From positions 62,001 through 126,000 of the forward strand of contig JANZZV010000001.1 in NCBI GenBank assembly GCA_026419195.1: a stretch of DNA of 64,000 nucleotides. The letters are read 5' to 3'. Below are positions 1,309-51,795 of the stretch, one piece after another (position 1 is the stretch's first letter; the number at the start of each line of letters is the position of its first letter). Source of the DNA: Fervidobacterium sp. Lineage in GTDB: Bacteria; Thermotogota; Thermotogae; Thermotogales; Fervidobacteriaceae. Position numbers and translations under genes: made by a program. Under the pieces are notes generated by a model that saw only the letters and a list, made by a program, of their open reading frames with translations, was not told where the DNA came from and searched no databases.

Positions 1309-2664
1309 TTATTGCAAAGAGAGTTCTCTGACTATGCTTTGCGAGATGTTGTAGATATCCCCTGCTCCTACAAATATATAAACGCTGTTGTTATCGTAAC
1401 TAAGTTCTCTTAGATCTTCAAGTTTTTCGACAAAATTTGCTTTTGAGATTTGCTGAATTATTTTCTTTGCACTAACACCATTCTTTGTTTCAAATGCTCC
1501 ATAGACTTCTGTTATATAAATCTCATCGGCTCTTTCCAAAATAGATTTAAACTTCTCGGCTTCTCTTTTAAACCGTGTATATCTGTGAGGTTGGAATATA
1601 AGTACTATTTTCCTATCTGGATAAACTTCTCTTGCTGTTTTCAAAAGTACATCGATTTCGTCAGCTGTGTGAGCATAATCATCAACTATTGTAAGTTTTT
1701 TGACAGGATCGTCATAACTGACGTTAAACCTTCTACCAGGCAGTTGGAAATCTTCAAAAGAATCAAGAACAGCTTGTAAGTCGTACCCTATGCTCGAAAG
1801 TAAAGATATAACAGCCAAAGCGTTTAGTGCGTTGTGGTAGCCAGGAACAGGTAAGAAAAATTTCTTTTCTCCCCATGGTGTTAAAATAGTAACGGTTTGG
1901 TAGAATCCTTCTTGTTTTCTTTCTACAAGTTTAAAATCTCCTGAATAAACACCAAATGTGGTATGTCCATGGAATTTTTTCTCATCAGCGAACGTAACAA
2001 CAAATTTTGAGTTTTTCATAAGTGTTTTGAAACTTTCATAATAGTGTTCGAGATTTTGGTAGTTTTCGATATGGTCTTCCCTTATGTTGGTAATTATCAA
2101 ATACTCTGGTGCGAAGAGTTCATAGCCTGGTTGACTTTCATCAAGTTCATAAACCGCTATGTTGTTCTTTCCAGCTCTGTAATTTCCATGTTCTAACTTG
2201 TTATGCAAAGCACCAAGAAAAACAAATGGATCTACTCCAAGATTGATAAGGCAGTTTGCAAGCATTGATGTTGTTGTTGATTTGCCATCTGTACCTGTAA
2301 CCGCAAACCCTTTAAATGGGCTCAAAATGTTTCTAAAATGATCTATTCTCATTGTTATTTTTATACCCAATTCCTGCGCTCTTACATATTCAGGATTGTC
2401 CTTTGAAATCGCCGGTGTAACTATCAATTCATCTAAATCCTCAACGATATTAGTCGATTCATGGTTATAATAAACCTTTATGCCTATTTTTTCAAGGTAT
2501 TTTGTACGTTCTGAACTGTACGGATCACTTCCAAAGACAAGATTACCTAAGAAATGTTCATGCATGGCTTGAGCACTCATACCAATTCCACCGATGCCAA
2601 CAAAATACACCTTTTTTACTGAGTTTGCTTGATTCTTTTTGCCTTCTTGGCTGCAAAATTCCAT
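1309..2664 (-). CDS. murC: UDP-N-acetylmuramate--L-alanine ligase MurC
   Basis: MurC adds L-alanine to UDP-MurNAc with ATP in the cytoplasm, the first step of peptide stem assembly in peptidoglycan. The 451-residue length fits the family. Near the N terminus the Rossmann motif GIGGIGMSA is the MurC-type UDP-binding loop. The central domain has the ATP loop GTDGKSTT, where many homologues have GTxGKT. The C-terminal domain has DDYAHTADEI followed by FQPHRYTR, which are typical Mur ligase motifs. The ATG lies behind GGAGGCGTAAAG, a good ribosome site. The gene follows murG by 48 bases in the same direction, as in many cell-wall clusters. MurD-like alternatives are unlikely given the MurC-specific N-terminal motif. 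Confidence 0.95.
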   Translation of the reverse strand: MEFCSQEGKKNQANSVKKVYFVGIGGIGMSAQAMHEHFLGNLVFGSDPYSSERTKYLEKIGIKVYYNHESTNIVEDLDELIVTPAISKDNPEYVRAQELGIKITMRIDHFRNILSPFKGFAVTGTDGKSTTTSMLANCLINLGVDPFVFLGALHNKLEHGNYRAGKNNIAVYELDESQPGYELFAPEYLIITNIREDHIENYQNLEHYYESFKTLMKNSKFVVTFADEKKFHGHTTFGVYSGDFKLVERKQEGFYQTVTILTPWGEKKFFLPVPGYHNALNALAVISLLSSIGYDLQAVLDSFEDFQLPGRRFNVSYDDPVKKLTIVDDYAHTADEIDVLLKTAREVYPDRKIVLIFQPHRYTRFKREAEKFKSILERADEIYITEVYGAFETKNGVSAKKIIQQISKANFVEKLEDLRELSYDNNSVYIFVGAGDIYNISQSIVRELSLQ

Positions 2665-2712: not shown

Positions 2713-3759
2713 TCAGATATTTAAACTTTTGCAAATTGAGTCAACTATTCTACAAGCTGGATTTTCTCTTTCCTCAAAATTTCGTCCTTTTTGAATAAGA
2801 TCTTCTATGATATTCACAACTTGTTCCCTGTTGTAATCAATTTCCCTAATCATAACTCCTAATTTTTCTTTTTCAATTATCTTCGCGTTTACAATTTGAT
2901 GAGATTCTGTTGAACCTTCCCATGGGATAACTATGGCTGGGACATTAAAATGTATTAATTCGGATATTGTTGTTGCGCCTGCACGGGTTATAGCAACATC
3001 AACAGATCTCCAATATGCGTACATGTTTTCTATATAGTCTTTTACCTCAACATTCTTAGGGATTTTTCCTTCCAACTTCCTACCACCAGTTGAGAGAATA
3101 AAATGAACGTTTGGCATTGTCTGAGCAATTTCTAAGGTTATTTTGTTTAGAAACTCACTACCACCGCTCCCACCTATGGTTATTACGGTTGGATGTGGTA
3201 ACTGTACTCTCCCTTCCCGTACCCATATTGGATTGCCGGTAACTTCTATCTTATTCTTCACATTCTTTGGAAATCTTTTTGCGGCCTCTTCAAAGGCAAG
3301 ATAAACCTTTTGCGCAAATTTCGAGATAGCAACATTCGCTTTGCCTGGAATGGTGTTCTGTTCTTGAACAAACACAGGAATGTGAAGTTTTTTAGCTGCC
3401 TTAGAAACAGGATAACTCACGTACCCGCCCGTTACGTAAACAAAATCTGGTGAAAATTCTTTGAGCTTTTGCTCAACTTTTATGGTGTTAGATATTAATC
3501 GTGCAAACCTTAAGATATTTTCAGGATGGAAAATAGGTCGTACAAGACCTTTAATTTGAATCGAATATCTTTGAAACTCGGGGTGCACATTTGGTAAGAA
3601 TCTTTCTTCTATCTTTCCGTACACGCAAAAGTACAGAACTTCGATATTGTATCTTTTCTGAAATTCTTCTAGGACAGCTATATTTGGATAAAGATGTCCA
3701 CCTGTAACCCCACCAGCTGCCGCAATTTTGATTCTTTTACTGTCCTTTTTCTCAATCAT
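2713..3759 (-). CDS. murG: UDP-GlcNAc:lipid I N-acetylglucosaminyltransferase MurG
   Basis: MurG transfers GlcNAc to lipid I, making lipid II on the inner face of the cytoplasmic membrane. The 348 residues show the GT28 layout. The N-terminal glycine loop GGVTGGHLYPNIAV binds the lipid pyrophosphate. The linker region contains YVTGGYVSYP and VFVQEQNTIPGKAN. The C-terminal donor site has TIGGSGGSEFLN, and the family signature ITRAGATTISELIHFNVPAIVIP is followed by SHQIVNA. The gene sits 6 bases after ftsW and before murC, which supports a co-transcribed septal wall module. The start is the ATG just after the ftsW stop, with AAGGAG in the end of ftsW. Confidence 0.96.
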   Translation of the reverse strand: MIEKKDSKRIKIAAAGGVTGGHLYPNIAVLEEFQKRYNIEVLYFCVYGKIEERFLPNVHPEFQRYSIQIKGLVRPIFHPENILRFARLISNTIKVEQKLKEFSPDFVYVTGGYVSYPVSKAAKKLHIPVFVQEQNTIPGKANVAISKFAQKVYLAFEEAAKRFPKNVKNKIEVTGNPIWVREGRVQLPHPTVITIGGSGGSEFLNKITLEIAQTMPNVHFILSTGGRKLEGKIPKNVEVKDYIENMYAYWRSVDVAITRAGATTISELIHFNVPAIVIPWEGSTESHQIVNAKIIEKEKLGVMIREIDYNREQVVNIIEDLIQKGRNFEERENPACRIVDSICKSLNI

Positions 3760-3765
3760 TCATTA

Positions 3766-4869
3766 TCATTCCTTTTCTCCTTCTTCGGTGTAAAAAGGTT
3801 TCTTTTCTTCTTTATTAGTTAATCCTGACAGTATAATCCCGAATCCTGCAAGAAGAGACATGATAGAACTACCTCCAGTACTCAAAAATGGTAGTGGTAT
3901 ACCCGTAACTGGGAGAAATCCAGAAAAAACACCAAGGTTTATTGCAACATGAAGTAGTATAATTGTTGCGTAAGACCATGTGAATATTTTAACAGCGACA
4001 TCTTCAATGTAACTTGCAACTTTCATTAAAGCGTAGGAGAGGAAAAGATACACAATGCTTACCATCAATATCCCAAAAAATCCCCAATCCTCACCGATAA
4101 CCGCTAAAATAAAGTCACTTTCGGCTTCCGGTACGTACACCTTCAACCATCCGTTCGCTATTCCAGCCCCTGTTGCTCCAGAATTTTTTAAAGTTCTAAG
4201 CGCTATGTCTACCTGCGGGGCAATCGAACCACTGAAAAAGTAACGTAATCGTCCAAGTTGATAACTGTGCAAAAAACCAAACATTGATGCAATTACAATG
4301 GATAATACGACTAAAAAGAAGGATATTATAAAGTATCTCAATTTTGCACCGCCGTAGTACAAAGTAACTAAAGATACCATCAGCGTCAACAAAGCTGTAC
4401 TGAGGTTTGGTTCTATAAATATTAACACTACGTAGACAAGGGAAAAGACGATGGGTAACAAAAAGCCTTTTAAGAAAGTGTTCATCACTTTGTCGTTTTT
4501 CTTCACATAAACTGAAAGAAAAAGTATAATCAGGATTTTTGCAAGTTCAGATGGCTGAAATGTAAATCTTCCCATTGTAATCCATCGATGAGCACCGTTC
4601 ATCGAAGGAAAAGCAAATACAGCTGCCAGCAAAATTATACCTAAGCCATAAAGAAAGTTTGAGTATTTTTCGTATATGTGGAAAGGGACGTTCATCGCTA
4701 AGAAAAACACAACAAGACCTGCCGCAATATTAATGATATGTTTTGTGAAAAAATTGCTATCAATACCAAGAACGCTTTCCTTTGCTATATCGAGACTGTA
4801 CATGGATATTGCACCTACAACGAATAGCACTAAATAAGAAGTTATTATGATAATTAATTCTTGTCTCAT
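3766..4869 (-). CDS. ftsW: SEDS peptidoglycan polymerase FtsW (RodA/SpoVE family)
   Basis: This is a SEDS-family membrane glycosyltransferase that polymerises lipid II, usually with a cognate class B penicillin-binding protein. The protein is 367 residues with about ten hydrophobic segments. Family motifs include GAHRWITMGRFTFQPSELAK (polymerase core) and PVTGIPLPFLSTGGSS near the C terminus. The neighbours murG and murC favour FtsW over RodA, but the sequence alone does not settle this. An ATG six codons further upstream is possible. I chose the ATG at 4869, which overlaps the hemW stop as ATGA and has GGGAGGAG 7 bases before it. Confidence 0.88.
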   Translation of the reverse strand: MRQELIIIITSYLVLFVVGAISMYSLDIAKESVLGIDSNFFTKHIINIAAGLVVFFLAMNVPFHIYEKYSNFLYGLGIILLAAVFAFPSMNGAHRWITMGRFTFQPSELAKILIILFLSVYVKKNDKVMNTFLKGFLLPIVFSLVYVVLIFIEPNLSTALLTLMVSLVTLYYGGAKLRYFIISFFLVVLSIVIASMFGFLHSYQLGRLRYFFSGSIAPQVDIALRTLKNSGATGAGIANGWLKVYVPEAESDFILAVIGEDWGFFGILMVSIVYLFLSYALMKVASYIEDVAVKIFTWSYATIILLHVAINLGVFSGFLPVTGIPLPFLSTGGSSIMSLLAGFGIILSGLTNKEEKKPFYTEEGEKE

Positions 4870-5978
4870 CCAAAATACTCCTCCCAAATATTTATCAATG
4901 TAACAAAAAACAAATTACTAAAATCCATACCTTTATCAGACAAGCGTAAGCCATCAAAAAAATCGAACCTTTGCTTTAACTGCTGCAGAACTGTTGATAC
5001 ATCAACGCCGGTTTTGTTTCTAATCAGATCTACATTCGTTCCCCATTTTGTTCTAAGGTTCATAAAAAGTGTTTCTAAAGCCTCTCGTTCGGGTGTATTT
5101 AGTGATTCGTACGAGCGTGGAAACTTTCCTTCTAATATGCTGATGAAATAATCAGAGAACTTTTCGTAATTGTTGTATCTCAGAAATCCTAAGTGACCTC
5201 CGGATGCTATACCCAAGCCGATGTAATCATCATTATTCCAGTACTTTATATTGTGTTTACAGTACTTACCACCGAGCGAAAAATTGGATATCTCATATCT
5301 CTCATATCCAATATTTTTTAAAGCCTTTAAGAATTCGTCATATCTTTGATAAGTTTGTTCATCTGGTTTTTTAAGAAAGCCGTTCCCATTTTCGTTATGG
5401 ACTTCCAACATGTAAACAGAGACGTGATCTGGAAGGAAATCATTTACAAATTGGACGTTGTTTTGTATGGTTCTCCATGATTCTCCAGGTAAACCGACAA
5501 TGAAATCCACATTGATATTTTCAAAAAATCTACGAGCTATATCGTATTTTCTTATAAATGTTTCAAAATCGTATAATCTACCGGATCTTTTTAAAACTAA
5601 ATCATCAGAGCTTTGCAACCCCATGCTCAGTCTGTTAATACCGATCCATTTGTAAAACTGCGCAAGTTCTTTTGTGAAACTCTCTGGATTTACTTCAATT
5701 GTGATCTCATCAAAAACTCCTCCATAAGATGTTAACTTTTCCAAAATTTTTTTGATGTCTTTTTCCGGAAAAATACTTGGAGTTCCACCACCAATATAAA
5801 TTGTATCAATACCTGCAGATAAGTATTCACTGTACATTTCAATTTCTTTTAGCATGTAATCAGTGTATTCATCAAAATTGTTTTCCACATAACTTGTGAA
5901 GTCACAGTAGATGCATCTTTTTTTACAAAAAGGGATATGAACGTACACTCCTATCCCTTTACCATTTTGTTTAGCCAT
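4866..5978 (-). CDS. hemW: Radical SAM heme chaperone HemW
   Basis: HemW is a radical SAM protein related to oxygen-independent coproporphyrinogen oxidase (HemN). It is known in other bacteria as a heme-binding chaperone rather than the oxidase. The cluster motif is CKKRCIYC, followed by DF as in HemN/HemW. The GGGTPS motif follows at about residue 64. The HNxxYW signature (HNIKYW), which marks HemW and is absent from true HemN, is present near residue 240. At 370 residues it is shorter than HemN and matches HemW. It overlaps ftsW by 4 bases (ATGA) and follows the secreted-protein gene by 21 bases. An older annotation would call it coproporphyrinogen III oxidase. Confidence 0.88.
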   Translation of the reverse strand: MAKQNGKGIGVYVHIPFCKKRCIYCDFTSYVENNFDEYTDYMLKEIEMYSEYLSAGIDTIYIGGGTPSIFPEKDIKKILEKLTSYGGVFDEITIEVNPESFTKELAQFYKWIGINRLSMGLQSSDDLVLKRSGRLYDFETFIRKYDIARRFFENINVDFIVGLPGESWRTIQNNVQFVNDFLPDHVSVYMLEVHNENGNGFLKKPDEQTYQRYDEFLKALKNIGYERYEISNFSLGGKYCKHNIKYWNNDDYIGLGIASGGHLGFLRYNNYEKFSDYFISILEGKFPRSYESLNTPEREALETLFMNLRTKWGTNVDLIRNKTGVDVSTVLQQLKQRFDFFDGLRLSDKGMDFSNLFFVTLINIWEEYFG

Positions 5979-5999
5979 TGACTTTTTTCATCTCCAAAG

Positions 6000-6863
6000 T
6001 TAGATTCCAGAAAATTTTACTTTGAAATAGCCTACGTTGTTTTGTATTATTAAATCACCTTCGATTGGTGAAAGAAAACGGAACCAAACACCATACTTAA
6101 GGTTTTCAGAAGAAGGCACGTACGTTCCATAAGCAGAAAAGAAGAATCTGAAATCGAAAACCTCGATGAATATTCTACCTCCCAATACTCCAACTATTCT
6201 ATTCTCATCAAAATCCCAACCTACGTTTACCGTAGCACCTTGCTCTAAGGATTTGTCACTGAATACGAAAAATCCCAAAGAGTATATGTTGCCAATCTGC
6301 AGAAAGCTAAGCTGAAAAGTATCTATATTTGCAAATCCCCGTTTAATGCTTATGTTAACTTTGTTATTACCGATTTTTTGGAACGAAAATCCTTCGTAAT
6401 TTAATGCAAAAGGACCTATCGTGCCATCACCCACAGGAATAGCAGGAAGCGCGAACCAAGTTTTTGAATATTCAGATTGCATTGTTTGAAGCGAAGATAT
6501 ATAGTAAGTTCTTTCAAAACCTGTTGATGGAATAGAGTAACTTTCATATCCAATTGTCAGTACAACTCCATACGTTTGACCAACAAATGCTAAAAGATTG
6601 AAATAGCTTTTGTCGATTTGTCGTTTCATTGTAATAAATCCAAGTTTGTAAGATTCACTGCGAACATTTTCATCGAATAGTCTCAGACCAAAAGCGTATT
6701 TCATGTTTTCGATTACAACTGACATATTCCACAAGTTCAAAGAAAACGAATTGTAAATTCCTTGTGCCTCTGGAACAAATGTTTGAGCATTTAAATTTGA
6801 TGATAAAGATAATGCAAAAATGAAAACGAGAAATTTAATTTTGTCTCTCAGTTTTGTTTTCAT
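6000..6863 (-). CDS. Secreted beta-rich protein of unknown function
   Basis: I do not recognise a family. The 287-residue protein starts with a basic stretch and a hydrophobic core (FLVFIFALSLSSNLNAQ) typical of a signal peptide, with a likely cut after NAQ near residue 27. The rest lacks hydrophobic helices. It is rich in alternating aromatic and polar residues, for example FQLSFLQIGNIYSLGFFVF and VFDFRFFFSAYGTYVP, which suggests many amphipathic beta strands. It ends in a short strand after NNVGYFKVKFSGI. An outer-membrane or toga-associated barrel is plausible. The gene sits 27 bases after gatB and 21 before hemW. The ATG has AGGGGGATCACG before it. The protein is probably lineage-specific. 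Confidence 0.6.
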   Translation of the reverse strand: MKTKLRDKIKFLVFIFALSLSSNLNAQTFVPEAQGIYNSFSLNLWNMSVVIENMKYAFGLRLFDENVRSESYKLGFITMKRQIDKSYFNLLAFVGQTYGVVLTIGYESYSIPSTGFERTYYISSLQTMQSEYSKTWFALPAIPVGDGTIGPFALNYEGFSFQKIGNNKVNISIKRGFANIDTFQLSFLQIGNIYSLGFFVFSDKSLEQGATVNVGWDFDENRIVGVLGGRIFIEVFDFRFFFSAYGTYVPSSENLKYGVWFRFLSPIEGDLIIQNNVGYFKVKFSGI

Positions 6864-6890
6864 CGTGATCCCCCCTTAGTTAATTTGAAA

Positions 6891-8330
6891 TTAATTCCCT
6901 TTAAGAAGTTTGTTTAATATTTCGTTGACGATTTTTGGATTAGCTTTGCCTTTTGTTTCTTTCATAACCTGTCCGACAAAGAAACTGAATAATCCTTCTT
7001 TGCCTTTTCTAAATGTCTCTACCTGTTGAGGATTGCTTTCGATAACTTTTTTTGCTATTTGTTCTATCAGTTCGTAATCGTCAACTTGTTTCAAACCTTT
7101 CTCTTCCACAATAAGCTTAGGTTTCTTACCAGTCAATGCACTCTCCTCAAATATACTTTTTGCAATGTTTCGGGAGATAACACCACTTTTCATTAGGTCA
7201 AATAGTTCAACAAAGTCTTTTTCGGTGATCTTGATGTTTTCTTTACCGTGCTCAGTGTACAATCTAAATAACTCTGTCAAAAACCAATTAGCAGTTTCTT
7301 TTGGATCATTTGTTTTTTCGACAACCTTTTCATAAAAATCAGCAATTTCTTTGTCTTCAACAAATGTCCACGCGTCTTTTTCCGATAAGTTGTATTGTTG
7401 CATAAATCTTTTCAATCTCTCGTCAGGTAGTTCTGGTAAAGTTTTTTTGATCTTTTGTATATACTCACTTTTTATCAACACTGGTGGTATATCTGGTTCT
7501 GGGAAGTATCTGTAATCGTGAGCTTCTTCTTTACTTCTCATGCTGACGGTTGTTTTTGTATTTAAATTCCAACCTCTTGTTTCCCTTTCCACTTCTTTTC
7601 CTTCCTCCATTAAAGAAACAATCCTCTCAAATTCGTATTCGAGAGCTTTTTCAACAAACTTGAAAGAGTTCATGTTCTTTACTTCGACTTTGTTACTTTG
7701 TTTACCTGTTTTGGTGTCTAAAACTGATATGTTAGCATCGCATCTCATTGCACCTTTTTCCATATCTCCACTACTAACACCAAGGTATCTGAGTAATGTC
7801 CTAAGTTTTTCCATAAACAATCTCGCTTGTTCTGGAGATTCTATATCCGGTTCTGTTACAATTTCAGTAAGAGGAATTCCACATCGATTCATATCAACAA
7901 GAGAATAATCAGCTTCAGTGATGTTCTCACCGGAATGTAGTAATTTTCCCGCATCTTCTTCAAGATGAATCCTTCTAATTCTCACAATTTTTCCATTAAC
8001 ATCCAGATATCCATACTCTGCAACTGGGTAAAAAAATTGTGTAATTTGATAACCTTTAGGCAAATCTGGGTAAAAATAATTTTTTCTATCGAACCTTGTG
8101 TATTCGTTTACTTTGCAATTCAAAGCAAGCGCGAGTTTAATCCCAAGCTCATACATTTCTTGCGAAGGCACTGGCAAAGCACCAGGTTGTCCCGTACATA
8201 CTGGACAAATCGAAGTATTCGGCTCCATCTCGAAAACATCTGCGCTACAGCTGCAGAAAGCTTTCGTTTTAGTATTGAGTTGAACGTGTATCTCAAGACC
8301 TATTATTGGTCGGTATCTGGAAAGGTCCAT
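6891..8330 (-). CDS. gatB: Asp-tRNA(Asn)/Glu-tRNA(Gln) amidotransferase subunit B
   Basis: GatB binds the mischarged tRNA and phosphorylates its Glu or Asp side chain. The activated group is then amidated with ammonia supplied by GatA. The 479 residues start with [19 protein letters not shown] second Cys pair in [14 protein letters not shown] completes the zinc site. The kinase core includes [45 protein letters not shown], and DANIS. The C-terminal YqeY-like tail domain is present and ends with [16 protein letters not shown]. The gene lies 71 bases after gatA in the same direction. No gatC is next to the pair. It must be elsewhere in the genome, or else the complex is unusual. Confidence 0.97.
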
Positions 8331-45841: not shown

Positions 45842-47290
45842 ATGGTTGTGGGTGGATTGAAGGGTATGGTGTATCATCAAGCAGGAAAGTTAATCGCTTC
45901 TGTTATCAGGAAAGCAGATGTACAAACATTTTCAAAACTTCTGTTTACGGTTGCTGCGTTGAGTAAGGAACCTGCAAAAAGTGGTTTGAAAAAGCTTGGT
46001 TTGATGGCGCAAGAAGAGCATCCCATGATTAAGAAGTGGATAGATATATTTCAAAAGGCTTCTCCACAGTCGGTTGAGAAGATCATAAACAATTTGATTA
46101 TTAACGAATTTGCTATAGGTGAGCCTCTCAGACAAAAGTTGATGCATGAACACAAGGTTGTTTTGCCCAAACTTGGTGTTATCAGTCCTACATACGCGTG
46201 TAACTTGAACTGTGTTGGATGTTACGCAGGTTTGTATGGTAGAAAATATGAGCTTACAAAAGATGAAGTGAGAAGTGTTCTTAAGCAAGGTGAACAGCTT
46301 GGTATTTATTTCTGGGTTATCACTGGTGGAGAGCCATTCTACTGGCCACATCTAATGGAAATATTTGAAGAGTTTAATGAGCATTATTTTATGGTATATT
46401 CTAACGGTATTCTTATAAACGAGGAAAAAGCCAAAAAGTTGTCCGAACTTGGAAACGTTACTATATCCATATCTGTTGAGGGGTTTGAGTCGGAGACTGA
46501 TTGGAGAAGAGGTAAGGGAGTTTTTAAAGCTATACAAAATACGTGGGAAAGATTAAGAAAATACGGTGTACCATTTGGCGCAAGTGTAACTGCAACGCGT
46601 GTGAACCATGATGTTATTATGAAAGATGAGTTCTGGGATTTCCTGGAGCAAAACGGGGTAGCCTATGTATGGATTTACCAGTTCATGCCAGTTGGGCAAG
46701 ACCCAGTAATGGATCTTGTTCCAACTCCGCAACAGAGATATGAAAGGTTTTTCAAAACAGATGAGATGCGACTCAGTGGAAGATTTGCGTTCGTTGCAGA
46801 TTTTTGGAACCATGGTTTCTTGACACATGGTTGTTTATCTGCAGGTGCAAAGTATTTCCATGTTAACGCAAAAGGTTACGTTGAACCTTGTGTCTTCCAG
46901 CAATTTGCGGTCGATAGTATAAGAGAAAAGACTTTGCTTGAAATATTCAAGTCACCGTTCTTTGAAGCTTACAAAAAGGCAATACCATTTTCTAATAACC
47001 TTTTCAGACCATGTCCAATAATAGATAATCCAAAAGTTTTTAGAGCGATGGTAAAGAACTTCAACGCTATACCACAACATGAAGGTTCTGAAAAAACTGT
47101 GACAGAACTTGCTCCTGAACTGGACAAACTTGCAGCAGAATGGAGCAAATATGCTGATAAGCTTTGGTATGAATATGGCTATGTCGAAAGATATCCTGTT
47201 AACAGAGGGATATACAATTATGAAACAAGAATGAAGAGGTATGCCAACAAGGAAGAGGCTCTAAAGGTTGATAAAAAGCTGAATGTTTGA
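45842..47290 (+). CDS. Radical SAM/SPASM-like enzyme, possible lipid or peptide modification
   Basis: The 482-residue protein has a helical N-terminal region of about 110 residues. The radical SAM motif follows in SPTYACNLNCVGCYAG at about residue 115, then FWVITGGEPFYWPHL and VYSNGILINEE. A Cys-containing C-terminal part (HGCLSAGAKYFHVNAKG, VEPCVFQ, FRPCPII) recalls SPASM-type domains. The product is unknown. Thermotogae make membrane-spanning diabolic acids, and a radical SAM enzyme is known to couple fatty-acid tails. This protein is a possible candidate, by inference only. It heads an operon with a TetR regulator and an MFS transporter. The ATG lies behind AGGAGGGATATC. Confidence 0.75.
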   Translation: MVVGGLKGMVYHQAGKLIASVIRKADVQTFSKLLFTVAALSKEPAKSGLKKLGLMAQEEHPMIKKWIDIFQKASPQSVEKIINNLIINEFAIGEPLRQKLMHEHKVVLPKLGVISPTYACNLNCVGCYAGLYGRKYELTKDEVRSVLKQGEQLGIYFWVITGGEPFYWPHLMEIFEEFNEHYFMVYSNGILINEEKAKKLSELGNVTISISVEGFESETDWRRGKGVFKAIQNTWERLRKYGVPFGASVTATRVNHDVIMKDEFWDFLEQNGVAYVWIYQFMPVGQDPVMDLVPTPQQRYERFFKTDEMRLSGRFAFVADFWNHGFLTHGCLSAGAKYFHVNAKGYVEPCVFQQFAVDSIREKTLLEIFKSPFFEAYKKAIPFSNNLFRPCPIIDNPKVFRAMVKNFNAIPQHEGSEKTVTELAPELDKLAAEWSKYADKLWYEYGYVERYPVNRGIYNYETRMKRYANKEEALKVDKKLNV

Positions 47291-49875: not shown

Positions 49876-51690
49876 TTATATTTTTACTTCTTTAAAATTC
49901 TCTTGAATTGTATTGAGCAGGCTAATAGTTTGCTTAACGTTCGAGAATACCATGTTTAGCTCATCTAAGAACTTTTGAATAGATGCGCTTATTTCTTCTG
50001 CTGTAGCCGAACTTTCTTCTGAAATTGCAAGTAAATTCTGTATACTCGTTGTTATGCTTTCAAGTTTGTGCGTTTCCGAGTTTAATGTATTCACAAGGTT
50101 GTTGAGCTGGTTGGTTATCTGCGATATAATCTCGCTTGACTCCTTGCTTTTTGTTGCACTCTCTGAAAGGCTCTTTGATTGACTTTTCAATTCTTCATAA
50201 CCTTTTATAACACTGTTGCTCAATTTGTCTATTCCTGCTGAGATACTTCCCAAAAACTGTGCTATTTTAACTGCCGATGCTTTGCTTTCTTCTGCCAATT
50301 TTCTTATTTCATCCGCCACCACTGCAAAACCCCTACCAGCTTCTCCACTTCTTGCTGCTTCTATAGCCGCGTTCAAGGCCAATAGATTGGTTTGTTCCGC
50401 AATGCTCATTACAGTGTTAGCTATATCCATTATAGCACTTGCTTGACCTCTCAGTTTTTCACTTTCGGATGCAATGTTTTCAAACTCACTGCTCATGACA
50501 CTCATTCCTGAAGCAGAATTTTCAACGCTCTTTGCAGCTGATATAATTTTCTCAACTGCAACGTTTAAATCATGTATTATCTGATTTTGCTGTCCTATGG
50601 TTTTTGAAATCGTATCAACATTCGAGGCTACTGCTTCAGAGATTTTTTCTGCATCGTTACTTATTTGAACGGCCGTCTGTGCAACTTGAGAAGATAGTTC
50701 TTTCATAGTATCTATCTGTTCTTGAACAACATTAGCTGAGTCAAGTGTTTTTTTTGCAAAAGCCATGATTTCTTCTGTATCACCTTGCAAGCCTATTAAA
50801 AACTCTCTCAAGACAAAGACAGCTTCCGCATTCTCTTTCGAAAGTTCCTCAAAAGTCTTCTCACCTTTTATGAGAACTAAGTTGTTAAAGTCCTTGTTCT
50901 TGTAAATTTCCGCAATTTCTTTTGCACTGTCCATACCTTTTTTAAAATCAAACAGACCAAAATATACACCTGCTAAGATAAAACCACCTGTAAGTAAAGA
51001 ACCAAAAAGTGGTCCAACGAGAGTTGTAAAAAGCCAAGAGAGTGTAAAAGTAATGACTGGGAAGACAACTATATAAGTACTGAACATCGACTTTAGAAGC
51101 CCCAATGAAAATGCTTTAAAGAGTTTCAGTGTTACTAATTTACCATAAGGTTTGGTGGACTTAATTTTGATCTCCAAGAATGAACCCGAAGCACTAAAAC
51201 CTTGATCAATTATCTCGACTGTAAGGGGATCATTGAAGAAGTCTGCAGCTCCTTTTAGTAATCCCAAAAAGTAATGTCTAAAATCTCTTGAAGATTCGTA
51301 TCTTACGATTGCTGTCTTCTCGTCCACATATGTGAATTTGATGCGCGGTGGTTTGGAACCTGTGATTCTACGAGTTAAGGCCCTGTGAACACTGTCCATT
51401 GCACTCAAAAATGACATGCAACCTTCTTTTTTGAAATAACTTGGGTATGCAGAGTGGAAGGCTTTTATGTTGTTATAACCTGTCTCCTCCCAGAGTTGTT
51501 CGTATGTTCTACCTGTTCTTTGGGCTAGCTTTTTCGAAAAATTCACTACCAAATCATCAGGTATATCATTTGTTGGGATTAACAATTTGGAAGTATCAAG
51601 CTTAAATTCATCGACTAAGGAGTTTACCACCGATTCACCGTAAAGTCTGCGCCATGTTGAGAGCCATATGTTCATTATAAAACTCTTCAT
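49876..51690 (-). CDS. Chemoreceptor with N-terminal H-NOX heme sensor
   Basis: Residues 1-185 form an H-NOX (heme-nitric oxide/oxygen-binding) domain. Two helices at about 203-224 and 226-247 form a membrane hairpin. No HAMP is seen. The C-terminal chemoreceptor domain has the tip [20 protein letters not shown]. Counted from the ATG at 51690 (after GGAGGGGTGGTT), the residues are I5, W9, N74, H102 (heme ligand), P115, Y131-S133-R135 (YxSxR) and Y140, L144. These have the same identity and number as in the oxygen-binding H-NOX of Thermoanaerobacter tengcongensis, including the distal Tyr140 needed for stable oxygen binding. It likely signals to CheA in an oxygen or NO avoidance response. No che gene is nearby. 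Confidence 0.94.
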
Positions 51691-51737
51691 AACCACCCCT
51701 CCAATTCTGTAAATTTGTTGAGTATTTTATATTATGA

Positions 51738-51757
51738 TGTTACAATATATTATAACA
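51738..51757. promoter_or_regulatory. Near-palindrome in the H-NOX receptor/amidotransferase divergent region
   Basis: TGTTACAATATATTATAACA is a 20-base inverted repeat with one mismatched pair. It covers the -10 and start point of the receptor promoter. A bound regulator is likely but unknown. Confidence 0.5.
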
Positions 51758-51778
51758 CAAATACCTGGAAAACTGCAA
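51749..51778 (-). promoter_or_regulatory. Promoter of the H-NOX chemoreceptor gene
   Basis: Minus-strand TTGCAG and TATAAT are spaced 18 bases apart, about 60 bases before the ATG. Confidence 0.6.
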
Positions 51779-51795
51779 CAAAGGGGTGAACTTAT

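Follow-up and report, generated by a model that had tools for sequence, protein, structure and literature searches.

The product of the gene at positions 49876 to 51690 (minus strand) of the window, the stretch of 64,000 nucleotides of DNA from Fervidobacterium sp., a thermophilic anaerobe, analyzed here, is well predicted, by its sequence and by a structural model, to be an H-NOX chemoreceptor of the O2 type. It is ordinary in kind and belongs to an already described group, the H-NOX-MCP proteins of anaerobes with a distal Tyr. The added interest comes from the retention of H-NOX across a phylum in which no heme synthesis is known and from the presence of a heme-import-like gene cluster in the same genome. 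The account given below as a whole, with an O2-type H-NOX-MCP that would relay its signal through two membrane helices and would probably carry imported heme, is in our judgment quite likely to hold. Thermotogota offer many natural H-NOX-MCP copies with an invariant pocket, some of them in apparent operons with genes for oxygen defense or c-di-GMP turnover, and their cells, apparently unable to make heme, can be given or denied it. These organisms allow a clean test of oxygen avoidance via H-NOX-MCP and of its gating by environmental heme.

Receptor gene, domain layout, and heme pocket

The 604-aa receptor, recognized as an open reading frame with matches to two Pfam domains, consists, from the N to the C terminus, of an H-NOX domain, a membrane hairpin, and an MCP signaling domain. 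The HNOB domain (PF07700) matches residues 2 to 159 with an E value of 2.3e-40 (138.6 bits against a gathering score of 25.5). The MCPsignal domain (PF00015) matches residues 400 to 553 (positions 50032 to 50493, minus strand) with an E value of 7.5e-33 (114.2 bits against 34.6), which bears out the attachment of a chemoreceptor domain to H-NOX that had been reported in a preliminary description of this DNA. The tip of the MCP domain is at approximately residue 444, and its flanking arms are about equal in length. Hydropathy in 19-residue windows places a two-helix membrane hairpin at approximately residues 203 to 249 (positions 50944 to 51084, minus strand), too short to accommodate a periplasmic domain. 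Translation probably starts at the ATG at position 51690, which is preceded, at a distance of 7 nt on the minus strand, by a GGAGG motif and aligns with Met1 of the Thermoanaerobacter tengcongensis protein; the automatic ORF call begins at a GTG two codons before this ATG. A divergent intergenic region of 105 bp (positions 51691 to 51795, no strand) is seen in the sequence on that side of the gene. The genome also encodes chemotaxis components, with three CheW-domain genes, one of which lies within a 673-aa frame and is consistent with CheA.

The H-NOX heme domain, residues 1 to 181 (positions 51148 to 51690, minus strand), was delimited by a structural model from AlphaFold and by alignment with the T. 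tengcongensis H-NOX structure (PDB ID 1u4h), which has no gaps (phmmer E value of 2.8e-34) and shows identity at 64 of 181 positions (35%). The preliminary description had proposed this alignment as a check of its statement that the pocket residues coincide in kind and number with those of the T. tengcongensis protein, and all ten of them (I5, W9, N74, H102, P115, Y131, S133, R135, Y140, and L144) are confirmed by it. The distal hydrogen-bond network is represented by Trp9 (codon at positions 51664 to 51666), Asn74 (51469 to 51471), and Tyr140, the predicted hydrogen-bond donor to O2 (codon TAC, 51271 to 51273). On the proximal side, His102 (51385 to 51387) is the heme ligand by homology, and the heme-propionate motif Tyr131-x-Ser133-x-Arg135 (51286 to 51300) is invariant in the alignment; all these codons are on the minus strand.

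The AlphaFold model of the H-NOX domain (pLDDT of 93.8, pTM of 0.89) superimposes on 1u4h at 1.4 Å over 180 residues, with a Z score of 26.4, and no gap moves Tyr140 out of the pocket, a shift that the preliminary description had named as fatal to its proposal. The NO-selective H-NOX structures (Nostoc, Shewanella, Kordia, and the soluble guanylate cyclase beta1 subunit) have the same common fold but rank below 1u4h, with Z scores of about 12 to 23 and 14 to 18% identity. Thus, the profile score, the combination of His102 with the YxSxR motif, and the predicted fold place the domain in the H-NOX family, whereas Tyr140, accompanied by Trp9 and Asn74, the MCP fusion, and the chemotaxis genes of the host make the protein a predicted member of the O2-binding H-NOX-MCP receptors of strict anaerobes. 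The closest known counterpart is the MCP-fused H-NOX of T. tengcongensis (Caldanaerobacter subterraneus; PDB IDs 1u4h, 1u55, and 1xbn), which has the same W9/N74/Y140/H102/YxSxR set and the same fusion; the receptor from the window differs in coming from another phylum and from a host without known heme synthesis. With the same fold, the same distal triad, the MCP fusion, and an anaerobic phylum as the source, the earlier prediction of O2 binding in an anaerobe stands.

Distribution and conservation in Thermotogota

Profile searches of 103 Thermotogota genomes revealed HNOB in 46 of them, representing 18 of the 38 genera. Both HNOB and MCPsignal were matched in all 41 full-length copies scanned, a count that omits L024 and L047, which are truncated at the edge of a contig or have a disrupted frame. 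The comparison set included Thermotogota proteins only and comprised 47 distinct copies, L031 being left out as a duplicate of L025. The triad of W9, N74, and Y140 is retained in 46 of these copies, so the pocket match is not a matter of chance; H102, P115, Y131, S133, R135, G71, and G143 are invariant in all 47. Every MCP-fused copy in Thermotogota has Tyr82, as opposed to Phe82 in the T. tengcongensis protein, and residue 5 varies among the relatives.

The sole exception with respect to the triad is L014, a stand-alone H-NOX in a 180-aa frame (positions 1465 to 1983, minus strand, of a 5-kb contig from a fragmented genome) with Leu9 and Phe140. Judging by these residues, it resembles what would be expected of an NO-type protein, and contamination is possible. 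The H-NOX tree mostly tracks the genome families, and its topology suggests likely transfers into families f3 (genome G092) and f11 (genome G101). One genome, G046, encodes two H-NOX-MCP copies (L005 and L048), the second of which is divergent (Met144 and Ser112) yet keeps W9, N74, and Y140. In the open-licence literature, no paper on H-NOX in Fervidobacterium, Thermosipho, Petrotoga, or Kosmotoga was found, which is weak evidence; Thermotogae are named among the phyla with H-NOX in one paper.

Ligand, signal relay, and genomic neighbors

In the proposed mechanism, His102 and the YxSxR motif would anchor heme b within the cytoplasmic N-terminal H-NOX domain, where the ferrous iron would bind O2 and Tyr140 would hold the ligand with the support of Trp9 and Asn74. 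A change in the shape of the heme and of the domain would then travel across the two membrane helices and reach the MCP rod. By controlling CheA/CheW, the rod would steer the cell, with avoidance of oxygen as the most likely outcome. We infer both O2 as the natural ligand and the direction of the signal. As a general rule, the H-NOX proteins of strict anaerobes have a distal Tyr, form a stable Fe(II)-O2 complex, and are fused to an MCP, whereas those of facultative anaerobes have no distal Tyr, serve as NO sensors, and, instead of being fused to an MCP, have kinases or enzymes of c-di-GMP metabolism as their targets (PMC12329717).

The characterized domain from T. tengcongensis accepts NO and CO as well as O2, and the role of proteins of this type as O2 sensors in vivo is still undemonstrated (PMC9814294). 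Together with the NO-sensing role of the proteins from facultative anaerobes (PMC12329717), this range of ligands would be compatible with a receptor for nitrosative-stress taxis, the natural ligand of which is NO (or CO) and in which O2 binding is incidental. We consider such a role unlikely, given that Tyr140 is absent from the NO sensors, whereas here the O2-stabilizing triad is preserved in all but one of the copies, and that oxygen defense genes adjoin the receptor in nine genomes. In these genomes, all from family f10 and spanning five genera (g29, g31, g33, g34, and g36), a rubrerythrin gene begins 88 to 141 bp after the receptor gene on the same strand and is followed by a gene for a desulfoferrodoxin-type superoxide reductase (loci L075, L076, L077, L079, L082 to L085, and L092). 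This synteny in the relatives favors O2 rather than NO as the signal; it does so by analogy, because the receptor in the window has different neighbors, namely, genes for ribosomal protein L31, an S1-domain protein, and a divergent class-II glutamine amidotransferase, with neither rubrerythrin nor superoxide reductase beside it.

In other relatives, it is genes of c-di-GMP turnover that recur upstream of the receptor. Families f2, f3, and f5 include nine genomes in which an HD-GYP-type gene, coding for HD_5 and HDOD domains with an HHExxDGxGYP motif, is located approximately 9 to 28 bp upstream on the same strand (loci L072, L073, L074, L093 to L097, and L042). A related HD gene is found some 550 to 690 bp upstream in seven genomes of genus g32, and three relatives of the genus that the window comes from have a GGDEF gene at an upstream distance of about 75 to 118 bp (L063, L065, and L066). 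Therefore, in the species with such neighbors, the receptor may share regulation with c-di-GMP turnover. The same gene arrangements could be taken to mean that the main output of the receptor is a cyclic-di-GMP-linked behavior, such as attachment or motility state, as opposed to classical taxis, but this is improbable, as the receptor in the window adjoins neither an HD-GYP nor a GGDEF gene, adjacency does not imply interaction, and the MCP signaling domain is a good match to its Pfam model.

Heme synthesis and heme supply

Ferrochelatase family enzymes are needed by both the protoporphyrin and the coproporphyrin routes to heme, AhbD catalyzes the last step of the siroheme route, and HemB catalyzes an early step that is common to the heme routes. 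Ferrochelatase (PF00762) was found in none of the 103 Thermotogota genomes by a search that was positive in 8 of 14 control genomes, and none of the 103 genomes encodes a protein that matches the AhbD model TIGR04545 above its cutoff of 500 bits. Radical SAM proteins in 102 of the 103 genomes do produce matches to this model, the best of them scoring 355 bits; because all these matches are below the cutoff, we read them as other radical SAM enzymes. HemB is encoded in four of the 103 genomes, three of which also encode H-NOX; it was not found in the genome that the window comes from. Matches to HemN_C are weak and patchy across the genomes. Heme synthesis in Thermotoga has been described as incomplete (PMC10740692). 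On contig 56 of genome G015 (locus L053), HemB lies beside the AhbD-like radical SAM protein with the 355-bit, below-cutoff match, which makes G015 the only Thermotogota genome with a possible capacity to produce heme or a related tetrapyrrole; H-NOX was not found in it.

Cytochrome bd scores above the cutoff in four genomes, none of them with H-NOX, and six genomes encode cytochrome c assembly, which was not found in the genome of the window. Among the few families tested, the H-NOX-MCP is the sole heme protein detected in that genome, and the cell may have very few other b-heme proteins.

Since all known terminal routes to heme are missing from the genome, the cell probably has to import scavenged heme, here via an IsdE/Hmu-type cluster, and load the receptor with it. 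This heme-import-like cluster was recognized by profile matches at positions 3508 to 7916 (minus strand) of contig 14 of the same genome (G000, locus L099) and codes, in the order of transcription, for a substrate-binding protein (SBP), a FecCD permease, an ABC ATPase, a Flavodoxin_3/BilS-like protein, and a radical SAM protein. The SBP passes the curated cutoff for IsdE (heme), with 307.0 bits against 298.65. The best NCBIfam family for the radical SAM protein is the anaerobilin synthase HutW/ChuW/HmuW, with 245.8 bits (cutoff of 400), and the flavodoxin scores 102.9 bits (cutoff of 155); since both scores fall below the curated cutoffs, the names HmuW-like and HmuF-like denote homology only. 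As HmuW-type enzymes degrade heme, the primary role of the cluster may be to supply iron. It is similar to the hmuTRUVWF cluster of Fusobacterium, which takes up and degrades heme and whose HmuF delivers heme to HmuW (PMC10404700), in that genes for the SBP, FecCD, the ATPase, the flavodoxin, and the HmuW-like protein form a single run on one strand; it differs in the order of the flavodoxin and radical SAM genes, and no hmuR-like gene was seen in the stretch of L099 that was read. The cluster adjoins cobalamin genes and riboswitches.

HmuW-like matches, with scores of at least 147 bits against a HemW background of at most 122 bits, are found in eight genomes (the match in G055 is partial), and each of these genes lies within approximately 3 kb of a FecCD permease gene. 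All eight genomes encode H-NOX; this co-occurrence has Fisher P values of 0.001 by genome and 0.0025 by genus, uncorrected for shared ancestry, and the pattern was noticed first and then tested, with no prior prediction. The other 38 of the 46 H-NOX genomes have no HmuW-like gene. The import-like cluster, its HmuW-like gene being confined to genomes with H-NOX, and the lack of known heme synthesis in the phylum would also accord with a receptor that reports heme availability or redox state, with signaling that would differ between apo and heme-loaded protein or between its ferrous and ferric states; we give little credence to this idea, because a pure heme reporter would have no need of the invariant distal Tyr/Trp/Asn triad. 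If the protein is an O2 sensor, as we prefer, it could tentatively be viewed as a heme-conditional one, active only with heme scavenged from neighboring organisms, so that sensing would depend on the heme of the community; this extension is possible but somewhat doubtful.

Several other candidates for heme-related genes were considered and set aside. FecCD permeases are encoded in 102 of the 103 genomes and hence do not discriminate as markers of heme import, and a second FecCD locus in the genome of the window has a cobalamin riboswitch and probably functions in B12 uptake. Matches to the IsdE model at approximately 40 to 105 bits occur nearly everywhere and were read as B12 or siderophore binding proteins. 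The radical SAM/SPASM protein encoded at positions 45842 to 47290 (plus strand) of the window scores only 77 to 78 bits with the AhbD and NirJ2 models, which have cutoffs of 500, and was rejected as a heme enzyme. Its gene is followed by TetR and MFS genes, an order that is kept in six genomes of the genus. The window also encodes, at positions 4866 to 5978 (minus strand), a HemW protein of the heme chaperone family (TIGR00539, 221.9 bits against a cutoff of 205.4).
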